This document shows, in pieces, positions 7,599-22,232 of a DNA stretch of 64,000 nucleotides. Source of the DNA: Thermoplasmata archaeon (GTDB taxonomy: Archaea > Thermoplasmatota > Thermoplasmata > UBA10834); NCBI GenBank assembly GCA_029864565.1, contig JAOTTD010000007.1, forward strand, positions 1 through 64,000, given 5' to 3'. The first letter of the stretch is position 1. Each line of letters opens with the position of its first letter. A model generated the notes under the pieces. The model searched no databases, had not been told where the DNA came from, and saw only the letters and a program-made list of their open reading frames with translations. The translations under genes and the position numbers were made by a program.

Positions 7599-9050
7599 AT
7601 GGAAATCAAGGCACCGACGGGCGGTCAGCTGGAGATTCTATCTCGTGATGACCTGGACAAAATCCATGGCGCCACGGTGGAAGTCCTTCAAAGATTGGGC
7701 GTGAAGATCTGGGAGCCAACGGCTTTGAAGCTCTTCAAGGATGCAGGAACTGAAGTCGACGAGAAGACAATGATGGTGCGCATCCCGGAGAGCCTCCTGA
7801 AGGAGACCGTTCGGAAGGCTCCTAAGGAGTTCAAGCTCTACGGAAGGGACCCGGATTACGTCCTAAACATGGCTGGGAACAAAGTCCACTTCGGGCCTTC
7901 CGGACTTGCCGTGAGGGTGCATGACCTCGAGGGCAGAATAAGGCCGGGGACGCTGAAAGATGTAGGTGACCTTGCCAAGCTCGTCGATGCTCTGGAGAAC
8001 ATCCACATGAATGTCATGAATGTCACCCCATCTGATGTTCCAGACGATCTATACCACATGCGCGTGATCCAGGAGGACTGGAAGAATTCCGTGAAGACGA
8101 CCGACGGATACAACTGGACCGCGCGAAAGGCCCAGGAAACCATCGAAATGGCATCGATTCTCAGGGGTGGTACCGAGGAGCTGATGAAGAAGCCATGTCT
8201 CCTTGGCTACACGAACCCAGTCAGCCCGATGCAACAGTCCAAAGAGCTGATCGAGGGGGCGCTAGTCTACGCGAAGTACAAGCAACCGATGATATACGCT
8301 CCCGAAGCGCTGGCTGGCGGCACTGCACCAGCGACCCTTGCAGGACTACTTGTGCAGCAGAACGCGGAGGTCCTCTCCGGAATCATGATTTCTGAACTCG
8401 CGAACCCAGGGGCCCCTGTATTCTACGGGACTGTCTCGGCGGCGCTAGATATGAAGACGGGGGCGACAGCCCTGGGGGGACCAGAAGTTGGCCTGCTAAA
8501 CATCGCAACAGGTCAGCTGGGCAGATACTATGGGCTTCCGCGCAGGGGCACGGGTGGTAATTCCGACTCCAAAACACTTGATGCCCAGGCAGGGCTGGAG
8601 ACAGCGACGAACATGCTCATGGCGGGACTCGCTGGCATGAACTTCATCTACGACGCCTGCGGCTCCCTTGAGGGCAGCATAACGACATCCTACGAGAAGC
8701 TCGTAATTGACAACGAGATTGCTGGCATGGTCTCTAGGGTTCTGGGCGGCATCGAGGTCACAGAGGAGACGCTCGCGGTCGATGAGATTTGCAGGGTTGG
8801 GCCGAACGCAAGCTTCCTCGGCACGCCCTTCACGGCGAAGCACTTCAGGAACGAACACTTCCTCCCGACGCTACTTGATCGGAGGTCAATGGAGTCATGG
8901 CTGAAAGCCGGCTCGAAAGACATCACAGCGGTCGCGAGGGAGACTGCAAAGAAGATACTGAAGGAACACGAGCCTGTGCCCATGGACAAAGGCGTCACAA
9001 CTGAGATAGAGGAGTACGTCAAGAAGGTGTCCAAGACCTACGGCTACTGA
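7599..9050 (+). CDS. MttB/COG5598-family methyltransferase-like protein, close paralog of 112-1578
   Basis: 483-aa ORF, collinear and highly similar by eye to the first MttB-like ORF; no internal TAG. Confidence 0.86.
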   Translation: MEIKAPTGGQLEILSRDDLDKIHGATVEVLQRLGVKIWEPTALKLFKDAGTEVDEKTMMVRIPESLLKETVRKAPKEFKLYGRDPDYVLNMAGNKVHFGPSGLAVRVHDLEGRIRPGTLKDVGDLAKLVDALENIHMNVMNVTPSDVPDDLYHMRVIQEDWKNSVKTTDGYNWTARKAQETIEMASILRGGTEELMKKPCLLGYTNPVSPMQQSKELIEGALVYAKYKQPMIYAPEALAGGTAPATLAGLLVQQNAEVLSGIMISELANPGAPVFYGTVSAALDMKTGATALGGPEVGLLNIATGQLGRYYGLPRRGTGGNSDSKTLDAQAGLETATNMLMAGLAGMNFIYDACGSLEGSITTSYEKLVIDNEIAGMVSRVLGGIEVTEETLAVDEICRVGPNASFLGTPFTAKHFRNEHFLPTLLDRRSMESWLKAGSKDITAVARETAKKILKEHEPVPMDKGVTTEIEEYVKKVSKTYGY

Positions 9051-11024: not shown

Positions 11025-12167
11025 GTGACAGGGCCGAGTTCACCAGAGTGCGAATCACCTGGACGACAGAAGCTCTCATTACTAGACGAGTTCCTAACCT
11101 TGTGGATATTCCTAGCGATGGGGCTGGGCGTAGGCCTCGGCTATGCGTTTCCGGAGATCGCTGAATCCCTCGACTCGGTGAAGATTTTCGACGTGTCGCT
11201 TCCCATTGCGGTCGGACTTCTTGTGATGATGTATCCCCCTTTAGCCAAGGTCCGCTACGATGAGCTCGGCAAGCTCCGGGGGGCGAAGAAGATGCTGAGC
11301 ACTTCATTAGTCCTCAATTGGGCGATAGGCCCAGTGGTCATGTTCTCCGTGGCATGGCTCTTCTTTCCGAACCCGGAAGACTCGGCGTTCAGGAACGGAC
11401 TCATACTCGTCGGCCTCGCGAGATGCATCGCAATGGTCCTCGTATGGAACATGCTCGCGAAGGGCGACTGTGAGTATTGCGCTGTATTGGTGGCTCTGAA
11501 CTCTGTGTTTCAGATTGTGATGTATTCAATCCTCGCGTACGTGTTCATAACCGTTATGACCCCAGTTGTTTCTCCGTCGTCTCAGGCGATAGTCGTAGAT
11601 ATAACCATGGCCGAGATAGCGAGGAACGTGTTGATCTTCTTGGGCATACCGTTCGCTGCAGGCGTTGCGACTTGGTTCTTCCTCGCACGCAGGAAAGGCA
11701 GGGTGTGGTTTGACGCAGTCTTCGCTCCGAAGATCAGCCCTTTGGCCCTAATAGGACTGTTGTTCACGATTGTCGTGATGTTCTCGCTGCAGGGGGAGAA
11801 GATTGTAGACCAACCCTTCGACGTGCTTAGGGTGGCACTTCCCTTGCTCGTGTACTTCCTCCTGATGTTCTTCCTTAGCTTCGGCCTGTCCTTCAAGCTT
11901 GGGTTCAACTATGGCCAAGCAGCAACACAGTCTTTCACAGCGGCGAGTAACAACTTCGAACTCGCGATCGCCGTGGCCGTCGCGACCTTCGGGATAGCCT
12001 CGACTGAGGCGTTCACAGCAGTTATAGGGCCGCTGATGGAGGTTCCAGTTCTGATTAGCCTTGTGAGCGTATCCCTGTGGATTAAGCGGAGATACTACGG
12101 ACCGGACGGTTTGCCAGGGAAGCATCGAGGCTGCCAACAAGACGAGCGGCCTGACATGCGAACATAG
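11025..12167 (+). CDS. ACR3-family (arsenite efflux-like) transporter
   Basis: Ten-TM-like protein; GLGVGLGYAFPEI, LLVMMYPPLAKVRY, GLARCIAMVLVWN, FTAASNNFELAIAVAVATFG are ACR3 hallmarks. Confidence 0.85.
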   Translation: MTGPSSPECESPGRQKLSLLDEFLTLWIFLAMGLGVGLGYAFPEIAESLDSVKIFDVSLPIAVGLLVMMYPPLAKVRYDELGKLRGAKKMLSTSLVLNWAIGPVVMFSVAWLFFPNPEDSAFRNGLILVGLARCIAMVLVWNMLAKGDCEYCAVLVALNSVFQIVMYSILAYVFITVMTPVVSPSSQAIVVDITMAEIARNVLIFLGIPFAAGVATWFFLARRKGRVWFDAVFAPKISPLALIGLLFTIVVMFSLQGEKIVDQPFDVLRVALPLLVYFLLMFFLSFGLSFKLGFNYGQAATQSFTAASNNFELAIAVAVATFGIASTEAFTAVIGPLMEVPVLISLVSVSLWIKRRYYGPDGLPGKHRGCQQDERPDMRT

Positions 12168-12370
12168 CTAGAGTTATCCGTCAGCATGTAATTCATTCAC
12201 AAGGCCTTGTTTCCGGCTTAGAAAGTCATAGCTCGGAATTGAAAATATGGACAGACTCCGAGTCAATATCCGGGCCCTTGCTATTTTAATTCTAACAACG
12301 CCATTTATATCGTGCCGCAGCTCGAACCAACATCGCGCCTCTATCATTCGATGTCCTTCCTATTGCGCTG

Positions 12371-16448: not shown

Positions 16449-16649
16449 GTCCGCTTTGAGTGTTTTGAGAATGCGCAAACCCCTTTCGTTATCCCGTCCT
16501 ATGGCCTTTTCTCTGGGCGGAAGTCCTGTCATCTTTCTGGCATAGTCGGATTGTTGGCGGCCTACTGCTCATGGACTCCCTCCGTAGGATTGTTATATTC
16601 TAACGGTAATATTCATCTGGGTCGGCAATGGTTCATGGGGGAGACGAGA

Positions 16650-18188
16650 ATGAGTGAAACATCGATAGGCTCTCTATACACCATGATTATCGTATGTTTC
16701 TCTTTAACAAGCCTTGGGTCCATAACTAGCTTAGAGGATTCTGTGAATTCTGGTTGGGGAACAGCCGCGCCCATCGGAAGTGATGACTCGGGAAGCGCTC
16801 TATATCCTCAGGTTGCTGTCGACGACTCGGGCAACGCCATGGTTGTATGGCAGCAATATGATGGTGTTCGCAATAACATCTGGTCGAACCGATTCACCGT
16901 CGAAGCGGGATGGGGGGAGGCGGCCCTTCTCGAAACCAATAACTCGGGAGACGCTGTCAAGCCTCAAATCGCCGTCGACAACTCCGGCAATGCGACAGCT
17001 GTGTGGCAACAAGACAACGGCACTCGATACTGCATCTACTCGAACCGATATGTTGTCGGAACCGGTTGGGGAAGCGCGAAGCTCATCGAGTCCAATGACT
17101 CGGAGGGTGCTTTCAATCCACAGATTGCCGTCGACGACTCGGGCAATGCGACAGTCGTATGGGAGCAAGACGATGGCATCTATGACGACAGCATCCATTC
17201 AAACCGATATACTGTTGGGACGGGCTGGGGAAGCGCTACGCTCATTGGTGGAACTGCTAACTACTATTGGGACGAGCATGCTGTCGATCCCAAGGTAGCC
17301 GTTGACGGTTCGGGCAACGCGATGGCCGTGTGGATGCAATACGGTTTCAATTGGGGCAGCGTCTGGTCGAACCGGTATGAAGCCGGGACTGGCTGGGGGA
17401 CAGCGTCGCTAATCGAAACCGGCACTTGTGTGCTTCTTGCTGCCGAGCCGGAAGTCGCTGTAGATGATTCAGGTAATGCGATCTCCGTGTGGAGTGGGGC
17501 TGACAACTTCCGCCATTGCATTTTGTCAAGCCGATATGTTGTTGGAATGGGCTGGGGAGACCCGACGCTCGTTGAAGTCGCCGATACAGGAGACAACTTC
17601 TTTCCTCATATTGCAGCCGATGCTTCTGGCAATGCAATGGTCGTGTGGCAGCAAAGAGAGGAACCTTTTCCCGGTATTGCTGAAAGCGGAGTCATGGCAA
17701 ATCGGTATGTCGCAGGAACTGGCTGGCAAACAGCCACAATCGTAGAAGAATGCAGTTCAGGAATGATTGGGCATCCCGGGGTTGCCGTCAATGAATGGGG
17801 CAATGCGATGGCTGTGTGGGAGCGTATTGATGGTAATCGCACTAGCATCTGCTCAAGCAGGTATGGTTTTGAGACTGGCTGGGGACCAAGCGTATCCATC
17901 GGAACTAGCGCCCCTCTAAATGCCGGTAACCCTCAGGTTGCCATCGACGACTCGGGCAATGCGATGGTTGTGTGGTGGCAGTATGACGGCACTAGCTTTG
18001 ACATATGGTCGAATCGGTATGTCGAGCCAGAGACCTCCCTGTCATCATCGCACACTTCGATCGTTACTGTATTCGCTATCCTTGCCGTAGGAGTCTCTAT
18101 TGCTGCCATTTCCTTTTACTGGATTCGCAAGAAGAAGGGAGATAGAAGCGGCGAGTTGACTGAAGAAAAACCACCCCCGAGAAGCTGA
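16650..18188 (+). CDS. Surface protein with ~60-aa tandem repeats (propeller-like) and C-terminal TM anchor
   Basis: Repeated PQVAVDDSGNAMVVWQQYDG...IWSNRY..GTGWG units; C-terminal hydrophobic helix plus RKKKG; start chosen at MSETSIGS (ORF opens at 16551). Confidence 0.8.
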   Translation: MSETSIGSLYTMIIVCFSLTSLGSITSLEDSVNSGWGTAAPIGSDDSGSALYPQVAVDDSGNAMVVWQQYDGVRNNIWSNRFTVEAGWGEAALLETNNSGDAVKPQIAVDNSGNATAVWQQDNGTRYCIYSNRYVVGTGWGSAKLIESNDSEGAFNPQIAVDDSGNATVVWEQDDGIYDDSIHSNRYTVGTGWGSATLIGGTANYYWDEHAVDPKVAVDGSGNAMAVWMQYGFNWGSVWSNRYEAGTGWGTASLIETGTCVLLAAEPEVAVDDSGNAISVWSGADNFRHCILSSRYVVGMGWGDPTLVEVADTGDNFFPHIAADASGNAMVVWQQREEPFPGIAESGVMANRYVAGTGWQTATIVEECSSGMIGHPGVAVNEWGNAMAVWERIDGNRTSICSSRYGFETGWGPSVSIGTSAPLNAGNPQVAIDDSGNAMVVWWQYDGTSFDIWSNRYVEPETSLSSSHTSIVTVFAILAVGVSIAAISFYWIRKKKGDRSGELTEEKPPPRS

Positions 18189-18301
18189 TCGCAGGTACCT
18201 ATATCCGGAGTCTCGTCCGCCCCTATGGCCTTTTCTAAAGAAGGAAGACAAAGGGATTTGAGCCGCATCATCTAAGGGGGCCAATTCGAATTCTCTTGAC
18301 T

Positions 18302-18610
18302 CTACCGCTTGAGCATAGCTAGAGTTTCAGCAGCAGAGAATACAGGTATATGCACGCACTTGTTGAAGGCCAAGGGCGCCATGCACTCAGGTTCCATCTG
18401 AAAGTGCATGTAGGCATCCATGTCGGGGGCCTCATAGATCGCGTACACCGCGTGGCCCGAATGATCGTTCCAGATTCCAAGCACCTTCACTTTGTGCTTT
18501 GCGGCCTGTTCTTCGACCTTCTCGTACCATTTCACGGCCATAGATTTGTACTTGTGTTCGTACATTGGACAACTCTCGGCGCTATGCTTCGCTATCTGCA
18601 GGACAAACAT
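18302..18610 (-). CDS. Small DUF3303-like protein
   Basis: 102 aa MFVLQIAKHSAESCPMYEHKYKSM...GHAVYAIYEAPDMDAYMHF; dimeric alpha-beta-barrel-like composition. Confidence 0.55.
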   Translation of the reverse strand: MFVLQIAKHSAESCPMYEHKYKSMAVKWYEKVEEQAAKHKVKVLGIWNDHSGHAVYAIYEAPDMDAYMHFQMEPECMAPLAFNKCVHIPVFSAAETLAMLKR

Positions 18611-18689
18611 GCATTTCCTCCACTCCCCAAATCTCTCTTAGGAGGCTTAAATCCTTCTCTTCCGCCCCCATGGCCTTTTCTCTGGAAGT

Positions 18690-18714
18690 GGTGGACCGAA
18701 GGGGATTTGAACCC
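18690..18714 (-). repeat. 25-nt exact copy of tRNA-Ala 3' end (T-arm/acceptor fragment)
   Basis: ggtggaccgaaggggatttgaaccc identical to 22159-22183. Confidence 0.85.
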
Positions 18715-18817
18715 ACCAAAATGACTGGCTCGGCTGAAAAAGGTACATGAACCTTCCAGAATGGCATCTCGGGAAGGGTAACGAAAAGGAGGGGTTAATT
18801 GCCCCTCACCAAACCCC

Positions 18818-19033: not shown

Positions 19034-19053
19034 AACTGAGGCCTTTTCTAGGG

Positions 19054-19157
19054 CCCGGATTATGACCCGGAATCTACCGGTGATTAAAGCTGGATGCTAT
19101 AATTACCGGTACAAAATGTTCGGATCTCATCTTCCATTTTCTTACGGGTAGAAAGTC
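19054..19157 (-). repeat. tRNA-like/structured repeat, copy 1
   Basis: About 79% identical (ungapped, first ~62 nt, by hand) to 20474-20582; T-arm-like CCGGGTCATAATCCGGG on minus strand. Confidence 0.65.
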
Positions 19158-19390
19158 AAGTGCCTTCCCTCACGTATGTCATCTTCTCAAGCCGAAGAGA
19201 ATTTAGGCCCCTGAGGAGCCAGTAGGTGGCAACTCGAATCCTATCAGCAGGGATTGGGGCCAGATCTAGACCCCTTTCCAGGACGAGCCGTTTCCTCAAT
19301 CTGCCTCGGACCTAGCACGAGCCGGCCATTCCTTCTGTCTCGGTAAGGAGCTGACGCAAACGAGGTCCGTCAGTATTAGCATCGGTCCTT

Positions 19391-20110
19391 CTATTTCGAG
19401 CGACTTGTCCTGTGAGGCCCTCTCCTCTTGGCATCAATCCCAACAGGGCAGACGCGTATGCAGACACCGCAGACCTGTTCCCAGCCCGATAGATCGAGCT
19501 TCTTTCCTATTCTGAGGTGCTGATTGTCACAAGCTTTCTTGTCAACTCTTCGACCACCTTTGAGGGCTTTCGCCGGACATGCTCGGATGCATTTGTCACA
19601 ATCCATGCAGAAATCAGTCTCCAACCTCTTGTCAGGTGTGAGGATTGCGTCTGTTATGACAGAGACTAAGCGCATTCTAGCGCCGTATTTCGGCGAGAGG
19701 AGGAGGCCGTTCTTGCCGAACACCCCGAGCCCTGCCAGCTCTCCTGCATGCCTGTGCGAAATATCGCCTCTCATGCGCTTGAGGGCGTAGGGCGGGGATG
19801 CGGGGACCTGGACCGCGCGATGCCCATTTTCCTGGAGGAACTTCGCGAGCCTAAACGCAATCCTGTTGAGCTCATTGTTGGCCGACATGTAACTTGCCGA
19901 ATACTCGCGGCTAGGAGCGGATTCAAGGGCGGCATGGGGGAGTGCGACAGCGATTACTATGACGCTTCTCGCCGCCTTCAGGAAGTCCTGCGGGCGATGT
20001 CCTGGAGGCGCAACGGCGAACGCCTTCTCTGGAGCTATTCCAACGAGATCCGCTCCTAGTTGCATTGCGAGTTGCTTCACCTCGTTCCTGAACTTGCTTA
20101 TCATTGCCAT
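19391..20110 (-). CDS. 4Fe-4S protein related to epoxyqueuosine reductase (QueG-like)
   Basis: CMDCDKCIRACPAKAL and CGVCIRVCPVGID motifs; ADLVGIAPEKAF; start at MAMISKFR (ORF opens at 20233). Confidence 0.65.
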   Translation of the reverse strand: MAMISKFRNEVKQLAMQLGADLVGIAPEKAFAVAPPGHRPQDFLKAARSVIVIAVALPHAALESAPSREYSASYMSANNELNRIAFRLAKFLQENGHRAVQVPASPPYALKRMRGDISHRHAGELAGLGVFGKNGLLLSPKYGARMRLVSVITDAILTPDKRLETDFCMDCDKCIRACPAKALKGGRRVDKKACDNQHLRIGKKLDLSGWEQVCGVCIRVCPVGIDAKRRGPHRTSRSK

Positions 20111-20473
20111 GATACCCCGATGCCCATGCCCCCTTGAGAATGTTCCTGACGTCGTCTGGGTGCGAAGCATGGAAGGACACTGGTCTTCACGGTTCCCGTA
20201 CGGTCCAAGTGATTCCCAATTATTGGGAGGCATCTCGATTGCTTGCTCCTAGGAGCCTGGTCGAACAATCTCGTTGGGAGAGGAGATTCTCCCCTTCACA
20301 AGCTAGTATGTTGTGATTTGGCTTCAAACCTGAGCAGGTCAAGGTTGGTCTTCGACGGATAGTGAAAGCCCCAAATCTACTCTTCAAAATGCGCCGGCTC
20401 TGGAAGCGTCAGAACCCGTTGTTCTCGTCTGTTCCCTCAAACTCTTTCCTTTCTTCTCTTCAAGGTGCTACCG

Positions 20474-20582
20474 CCGGGATTGTGACCCGGAACCTACCAG
20501 TGATTGGGGATGGAGGCTATGCTTACCAGTACAGACTGAATGGAATCTCCACTCCCATTGTTTGCCAGTAGAGAAGAAAGTC
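20474..20582 (-). repeat. tRNA-like/structured repeat, copy 2
   Basis: Paralog of 19054-19157; minus-strand CCGGG-TCACAAT-CCCGG hairpin plus conserved ACTGGT...ACTGGT pairing. Confidence 0.65.
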
Positions 20583-20815
20583 GCCGATCATTCCCCATTG
20601 GCTTCTCCCTTGATGAGCCGTGGCCCGAGTTGGACCTCGAGTTCTTCGTGAACTGTTTGTTTGCTACACCAATGTCAGTCCTCGTCTCACAGTACGTTCG
20701 CTCGTTTGCCGCTGGGTGGTTTTCGGGAGGGGATTGCAGCAATGAACGTCGTCGTTCTTGTTCTGCAACTAGGCAAATCGACGAACATCCTGTGTTATCC
20801 GAACGGGAGCTAGAA

Positions 20816-21835
20816 TCACGTTGACGAGGCCACGTCGTAAAGGTCGGCTATTGCCTTCCTGGCCTCCTGGACAAGAAGGGAGGAGCCATCCTCGCGAATG
20901 CTGATTCCAGTTCTGTAGAGAACGTCCCGCCCAAACGTGAGCAGTTCCCTCACGGCTTCTGTGTTCTCATCTCGTTCCCTGTGAGCCTCAGCCCGCTTGA
21001 GGCTCGACAAGAGCTTTGCTGGCTCGTGCTCATTCGAGATCCATCCAAAGAGATGGGATTTCTCGGTCAATGCCAAGAGAAGCTCGATTGAATTCTTCGA
21101 AGTGATACCAGACAAGAGATTCTCAAGCAGGACAGTTCGTGCTTCCTCATCCCTTTTCAGTGTTGTAGAGATCAGTTTCCCGAGTTTTCTGGCGTCCTCG
21201 ATGACTCCATCCTGATTCATCACACCTGGAGGGACGATGTCAGGGGTTATCCGAAATTCGTCCGCTGATGGCAGACGATCTGCATAAGGATATCTCCAAG
21301 GTCGGTACCCACTCCTCACCATCGGATATGGCGTCCCCTGGACGCATTCATCTCCCAAGCCACATGACCAGCACGGATCAATCCCGGAGGCCACGATCTT
21401 TCCCATAGGCCTTATCCCCTCCCCTTTGAAGTACTCGGCGATGTCATCCGCGACAGGATCGGGGTTGACTGTTCCTGTTACGATTGCAGCACCAACCTTG
21501 CCACCATTGAGCAGTATCGAGTGTCTGAGAGAGAACGTTCTCTCCAGGAACGCTTTTGTGCGCGAGTCAAGTATGCCGAAGGGCATCCATCCTCCTATGA
21601 CAAGGGCCTTGGCCTCAACAACCTTGGGTGCTAGCACACGCCAATCATCCTCAATTCCGGTGCAGATGTTTGTCTTCGCGCAGGCGAGGCAAGCCCTGCA
21701 AGGTCGGATCTCAAGTTGAGAAAGCTTCACAAACTCGGATTTCTGACCTGCGTTCTCGAGCACGCACTTCACGAGCCTGTCTGTGTTACTGTTGGGAACT
21801 GGGCTGCCGCTTACTCCTAGAATCAGGGAATTCAT
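20816..21835 (-). CDS. NADPH-dependent FMN reductase/flavodoxin-fold iron-sulfur flavoprotein
   Basis: MNSLILGVSGSPVPNSNTDRLV and RPCRACLACAKTNICTGIEDDW motifs; start internal to the ORF opening at 21937. Confidence 0.7.
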   Translation of the reverse strand: MNSLILGVSGSPVPNSNTDRLVKCVLENAGQKSEFVKLSQLEIRPCRACLACAKTNICTGIEDDWRVLAPKVVEAKALVIGGWMPFGILDSRTKAFLERTFSLRHSILLNGGKVGAAIVTGTVNPDPVADDIAEYFKGEGIRPMGKIVASGIDPCWSCGLGDECVQGTPYPMVRSGYRPWRYPYADRLPSADEFRITPDIVPPGVMNQDGVIEDARKLGKLISTTLKRDEEARTVLLENLLSGITSKNSIELLLALTEKSHLFGWISNEHEPAKLLSSLKRAEAHRERDENTEAVRELLTFGRDVLYRTGISIREDGSSLLVQEARKAIADLYDVASST

Positions 21836-22160
21836 ATCCCCACCTCTAACATGGCTAATCTCCTTGACCACCCGCAGTATAACATTAATTACATATAAAC
21901 ATGAAATTGGCTCTGTCGCAGGGTGACTTGTCTCCAACGCCAGGCCCGGCCAATTGTGATTCCGATTCTAGAGGCGCGAGGATCGACGGCATGAACGTAG
22001 CCCTCGGTCATGGGCCACGAGTCCACCGAGATGACCCTGCGTTATATCGGGGTCAATCTGAGTGACCAAACCAAGGCCTTCGAAGCTGTGCGAAATCTGC
22101 GTGTCCAGATGCAGAAAACAGTGAAAATTGTACCTTTTGTAGCCCTGCCAGAAGTTTAGG

Positions 22161-22232
22161 TGGACCGAAGGGGATTTGAACCCCTGACCTCCTGCTTGCA
22201 AAGCAGGCGATCTTCCACTGATCTATCGGCCC
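22161..22232 (-). tRNA. tRNA-Ala (TGC)
   Basis: Cloverleaf: acceptor GGGCCGA/TCGGTCC, anticodon arm CCTGC-TTTGCAA-GCAGG, T-arm GGTTCAAATCC. Confidence 0.93.

Follow-up and report, generated by a model that had tools for sequence, protein, structure and literature searches.

A gene island at the 3' end of a tRNA-Ala gene

The window, by which we mean the whole stretch of 64,000 nucleotides that was analyzed, carries a variable gene island anchored at a tRNA-Ala(TGC) gene and punctuated by repeated sites of two families, termed A and B, as well as by a short motif termed C. The features are as follows.

22159..22232, minus strand: tRNA-Ala(TGC) gene, the anchor of the island
22129..22158, no strand given: B left arm present in inverted orientation, immediately downstream of tRNA-Ala and forming inverted repeat I1 with 18713-18747 (77% complementary)
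20816..21937, minus strand: cargo ORF, 373 aa, NADPH-dependent FMN reductase domain (Pfam)
20462..20585, minus strand: A-family site, copy 2 (profile match), left arm plus T-arm-like core
19391..20233, minus strand: cargo ORF, 280 aa, 4Fe-4S domains (Pfam)
19049..19160, minus strand: A-family site, copy 1 (profile E 6.4e-18; model R1 70.4 bits), left arm plus a core ending CCGGGCCCTA (truncated, tRNA-Leu-like)
18663..18806, minus strand: B-family site, left arm plus 25 nt of the tRNA-Ala 3' end, then the C motif
18661..18682, minus strand: C motif (GAGAAAAGGCCATAGGGGCGGA-like), 3' of the B-site core
18302..18610, minus strand: cargo ORF, 102 aa, DUF3303 (Pfam)
18216..18237, minus strand: C motif, adjoining a decayed T-arm-like GGCTCAAATCCC
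16492..16513, minus strand: C motif, on the far side of ORF 16551-18188
12177..12315, plus strand: third A-family site, 10 nt past an SBF-like gene (about 11025-12167, plus strand)

Synteny of the genes for EF-2, EF-1A and tRNA-Ala(TGC) extends to five relatives. Homology at the nucleotide level ends at 22157-22161, that is, at the 3' end of tRNA-Ala, where the island starts. Beyond this point every compared genome differs. In the window, the 3.4 kb between tRNA-Ala and the B site hold the FMN-reductase-domain gene, an A site, the 4Fe-4S gene and another A site. The corresponding interval measures about 2.8 kb in genome G003 and 0.4 kb in G009 and contains other genes. The SBF-like gene next to the third A site also stands before a site in two other genomes, and there the genes on the far side of the site are different.

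The first-pass annotation had described a pair of tRNA-like repeats flanking a 'QueG-like' gene. Both direct copies are real (19048-19118 and 20468-20538, 77% identity over 71 nt) and flank ORF 19391-20233, but they belong to a family far larger than two. The name QueG finds no support in the Pfam search, which matches only 4Fe-4S domains in this ORF. Its closest relative, in G008 (88% nucleotide identity over 956 bp), has no adjoining A site, and the homology stops 100-250 bp short of both window sites. Movement of the cassette with the 280-aa gene by these two sites is therefore unsupported.

Two further observations come from the start of the window. Rfam matches the pyrrolysine insertion element PYLIS_3 at 8559-8658 inside an mttB-like reading frame; as this frame has no in-frame stop, the match is probably coding sequence and not a working element. 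The segments 133-835 and 7620-8322 are 73% alike at a spacing of 7487 nt and are likely mttB-like paralogues.

Anatomy and distribution of the sites

A sites are made up of three parts: a left arm of ~80-100 nt, of which there are three sub-types, then a core resembling a T-arm, and lastly a right half. A palindromic ACCGGT-like element is found near each end of the left arm. The right halves derive from tRNA genes: across A and B sites they match the 3' ends of tRNA-Leu, tRNA-Glu, tRNA-Ala and tRNA-Val. The commonest A right half, CCGGGCCCTCGCACATTTTAAT, equals the 3' end of tRNA-Leu(CAA) plus flank. In copy 2 of the window, the right half (20463-20481) is similar to the 3' end of tRNA-Glu (CCCGGCGGTAGCACCT vs CCCGGCGGGAGCACCT), with one mismatch to the tRNA-Glu of its own genome and a match score of 13, compared with about 8 for the best shuffle. 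In the B family the left arm is a different one, and the tRNA 3' end next to it comes from tRNA-Ala or tRNA-Val; at 18690-18714 the window's B site is identical to the tRNA-Ala 3' end in 25/25 nt. A sub-group of A sites (L182, L187, L190, L201, L211) carries a common AT-rich stretch, ATTGAGAAAAAAGTTAAAGGGTTTT, in place of the tRNA end.

The C motif GAGAAAAGGCCATAGGGGCGGA recurs on the same strand just 3' of many site cores and of several real tRNA genes. It occurs 54 times in the examined loci and 0 times in a shuffle, and may be an integrase arm, a promoter or a terminator.

Site counts were obtained by genome searches with a sequence-only model of 62 members. The genome of the window has 15 A sites, and A sites occur in 19/19 genomes of its family and in one genome of a sister family of the same order. 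The same sequence-only model found none in the 180 other genomes of the class sample. Where pattern matches fall in named records, these are MAGs assigned to Thermoplasmata or Euryarchaeota, and exact-match scans of viral contigs with one A core and one B core found no virus-borne copies. All genomes compared are MAGs, and some of their contigs end in sites. The 25-bp T-arm matches of the initial DNA search turned out to be tRNA genes rather than sites.

A structured RNA is an unlikely reading of the repeats

The repeats had been suggested to be either a structured RNA or a recombination site derived from tRNA. On the first reading, each repeat would encode a structured non-coding RNA or a tRNA-like transcript. 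Indeed, the T-arm-like hairpin is present, with 5 bp in the 20474 copy and 4 bp in the 19054 copy, 89% of cells are paired over 4 bp, and the predicted fold around 19054 is more stable than that of shuffled sequence (z -2.4 on one strand, -3.8 on the other). In contrast, the 20474 copy shows no such excess over its shuffles (z 1.1 and 0.1), RNAalifold yields 0 consensus pairs for the 62 members, covariation among the 62 aligned members is at the level of shuffles and Rfam has no match to the repeats. The named structure pairs like shuffles as well (64.0% vs 63.6%, 144/500 shuffles as high), and the 4-bp hairpin shows no compensatory change among the 62 aligned members. The proposed 'second pairing', ACCGGT...ACCGGT, dissolves on inspection: ACCGGT being palindromic, it is simply a direct repeat, and at four of the six positions pairing is lost in 22-52 of the 62 aligned rows. 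Neither ARAGORN nor Rfam finds a tRNA gene within the repeats. With no Rfam match, consensus fold or covariation, we regard an RNA function as very unlikely. Descent from a tRNA T-arm accounts for the hairpin, which is most simply a relic of that arm.

Genes are exchanged at the sites

The sites sit between genes in same-strand arrays, for example nine sites at 1388.6-1404.4 kb of G006, downstream of tRNA-Val. As in an integron cassette array, two or more sites can occur within 4 kb of one another; examples are this locus (G006:C1), G003:C115 and G003:C91. Gene order was kept on both sides of a site in 0/110 inter-genome comparisons (84 sites), which are not all independent because the genomes are related; the controls were 193/397 gene boundaries (49%) and 52/96 boundaries within the same array loci. 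Among 30 site pairs with a common flank, 24 had only the upstream cassette in common, 6 only the downstream cassette and none both. In counts uncorrected for phylogeny, homology ends fell within sites in 68/634 cases compared with 11.8 expected (maximum of 31 in 200 shuffles), and upstream homology tracts stop mostly at the T-arm/acceptor core. Thus, the sites are borders of gene exchange.

Cassettes are also shared between genera. One Fic cassette of 1315 bp, flanked by a site on either side, has 93.5% nucleotide identity between two genera whose EF-2 genes are 80.6% identical, and another Fic cassette is 90% identical between families. Site-bounded cassettes adjoin different neighbours, even across genera. 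tRNA-Leu(CAA) forms the border between backbone and variable region in several genomes. Together with the right halves made of tRNA ends, these homology breaks and the exchange of cassettes strongly support the earlier suggestion of a recombination site derived from tRNA.

Of the cargo shared beside A sites, genes with a Fic domain are the most frequent, occurring there in about ten genomes (L128, L133, L189, L200, L203, L204, L208, L209, L210, L322). The variable region past tRNA-Leu(CAA) of G007 contains a threonyl-tRNA-synthetase-like gene (L138:1389-3314).

Genes upstream of a site lie on its strand in 54 cases and on the opposite strand in 27; for downstream genes the numbers are 37 and 32. 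This distribution rules out a promoter or terminator repeat tied to one gene orientation.

Might the sites be passive dispersed repeats of 65-120 nt, shuffled by ordinary homologous recombination? In favour of this explanation, the similarity among sites is about 65-85%, and most arrays have no enzyme linked to them. However, short diverged repeats are poor substrates for homologous exchange, and none of the 110 comparisons keeps both sides. Moreover, right halves derived from tRNA and variation that starts at the tRNA 3' end call for a site-specific step. We consider passive repeats improbable.

The arrays, in which each cassette holds one to a few genes and the site follows the gene, also recall true integron cassettes, whose attC sites are moved by IntI as folded single strands, and integrons have been reported in archaeal MAGs (PMC9668308). 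Nevertheless, when the 62 sites were folded as single-stranded DNA with DNA parameters to look for attC-like structure, the result was near random: z averaged -0.42 on one strand and -0.58 on the other, and fell below -2 in 4/62 and 6/62 sites. IntI was not found among the 10 integrases scanned, a part of those of the family (TIGR02249 at most 53.9 bits against a cut-off of 265). Gene orientation is mixed (54 same, 27 opposite) and the right halves are tRNA ends. We regard true integron cassettes as very unlikely.

A model for cassette insertion at tRNA 3' ends

We propose that the repeats are double-stranded att-type sites belonging to small mobile gene cassettes whose target is the 3' end of a tRNA gene, and we put the probability of this reading at roughly 0.83. 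An incoming cassette would supply a new tRNA 3' end, thereby repairing the tRNA, and the old 3' end would be displaced downstream. The resulting junction would consist of the conserved left arm of the cassette and the displaced tRNA 3' end, the latter becoming the right half of the next site. Repeated rounds would then build an array of one- to few-gene cassettes, split by sites and all on the strand of the tRNA. The steps of tRNA-end restoration and displacement are suggested by site anatomy; the order of insertion, and movement of the cassettes as circles, we infer. Several findings count against the model: no empty site or circle was seen among the MAGs compared, the A sites in the tRNA-Ala-anchored island have tRNA-Leu- and tRNA-Glu-like ends, the G008 homology described above stops short of both window sites, and integrases are scarce, as set out below.

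Crossover would occur in the T-loop/T-stem part of the core. One site of G006 and one of G000 have a rare right-half variant and the downstream cassette in common and differ in their left arms, so that the junction should lie within the core or to its left. A comparison of the sites by segment identity did not locate the exact crossover.

The cassettes are presumably moved by a tyrosine recombinase. In the genome of the window, PF00589 matches one complete gene, probably the chromosomal XerA, and one fragment; G009, with its 11 sites, gives no PF00589 match. An integrase lies beside tRNA-Leu(CAA) in only 1/19 genomes, namely G007, where a tyrosine recombinase is located 0.6 kb past the tRNA. 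Tyrosine recombinases are found at most 60 bp from nine tRNA genes (Ala, Pro, Val, Ile, Leu, His) in G004, G006, G007, G008, G010 and G012 (L191, L289, L290, L300, L302-L306). The integrase of G007 (L176:10403-11380) and the XerA of the family are candidates. As most arrays have no integrase, the enzyme would act in trans or have been lost.

Relation to known mobile systems

The closest counterparts are additive flexible genomic islands with tRNA direct repeats, described in 'Ca. Actinomarinales' (PMC7771536) and as fGI-2 of Methylophilaceae (PMC10872708). As in these islands, small cassettes are inserted at tRNA genes, a partial tRNA repeat ends each insertion, the island grows from the tRNA and its content differs among close relatives. 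The arrays studied here have the same tRNA border, tRNA 3'-end direct repeats at cassette ends and content that varies among relatives. Unlike the bacterial islands, they reside in an archaeal host and their junctions hold a conserved left arm of 80-100 nt, which recurs in cassettes of unrelated content and at more than one kind of tRNA target, in different genera and in one further family. The kind is already known from bacterial additive islands with tRNA repeats, and the conserved shared left arm and the archaeal host make the present arrays a variant of it.

Like integrons, including archaeal ones (PMC9668308), the arrays are composed of mobile cassettes ending in a common recombination site and, like CALINs, most have no integrase nearby. 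They differ from integrons in having no attC-like fold, no IntI among the scanned integrases, sites derived from tRNA 3' ends and a tRNA gene as array anchor. Tycheposons (4-200 kb; PMC10872708) are likewise tRNA-anchored and bear cargo; a tyrosine recombinase, which tycheposons carry, lies beside tRNA-Leu(CAA) in G007 alone of the 19 genomes. The present cassettes are about 1-3 kb and mostly have no recombinase. Archaeal integrative elements (reviewed in PMC8371274) also integrate at tRNA 3' ends and leave partial tRNA copies; these are usually one element with its own integrase, whereas here long integrase-less arrays have a common arm.

We tentatively speculate, at somewhat below even odds, that the arrays represent an archaeal system of cassette shuffling in its own right. 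In it, a tyrosine recombinase acting in trans would recognise the common left arm and join cassettes at double-stranded tRNA-derived sites, into several tRNA genes as well as from site to site, in an integron-like manner that involves neither attC folding nor IntI. We found no description of such a modular gene-exchange platform in the open-access literature searched.

The sites mark where genomes of this Thermoplasmata family gain, lose and swap genes. If our reading is right, these archaea have a modular gene-exchange platform, which would explain the turnover of accessory genes such as those for methyltransferase, Fic, transporter, peptidase and beta-helix proteins. It would also provide a concrete site pair and candidate enzymes for asking whether integron-like capture re-arose from tRNA integration.
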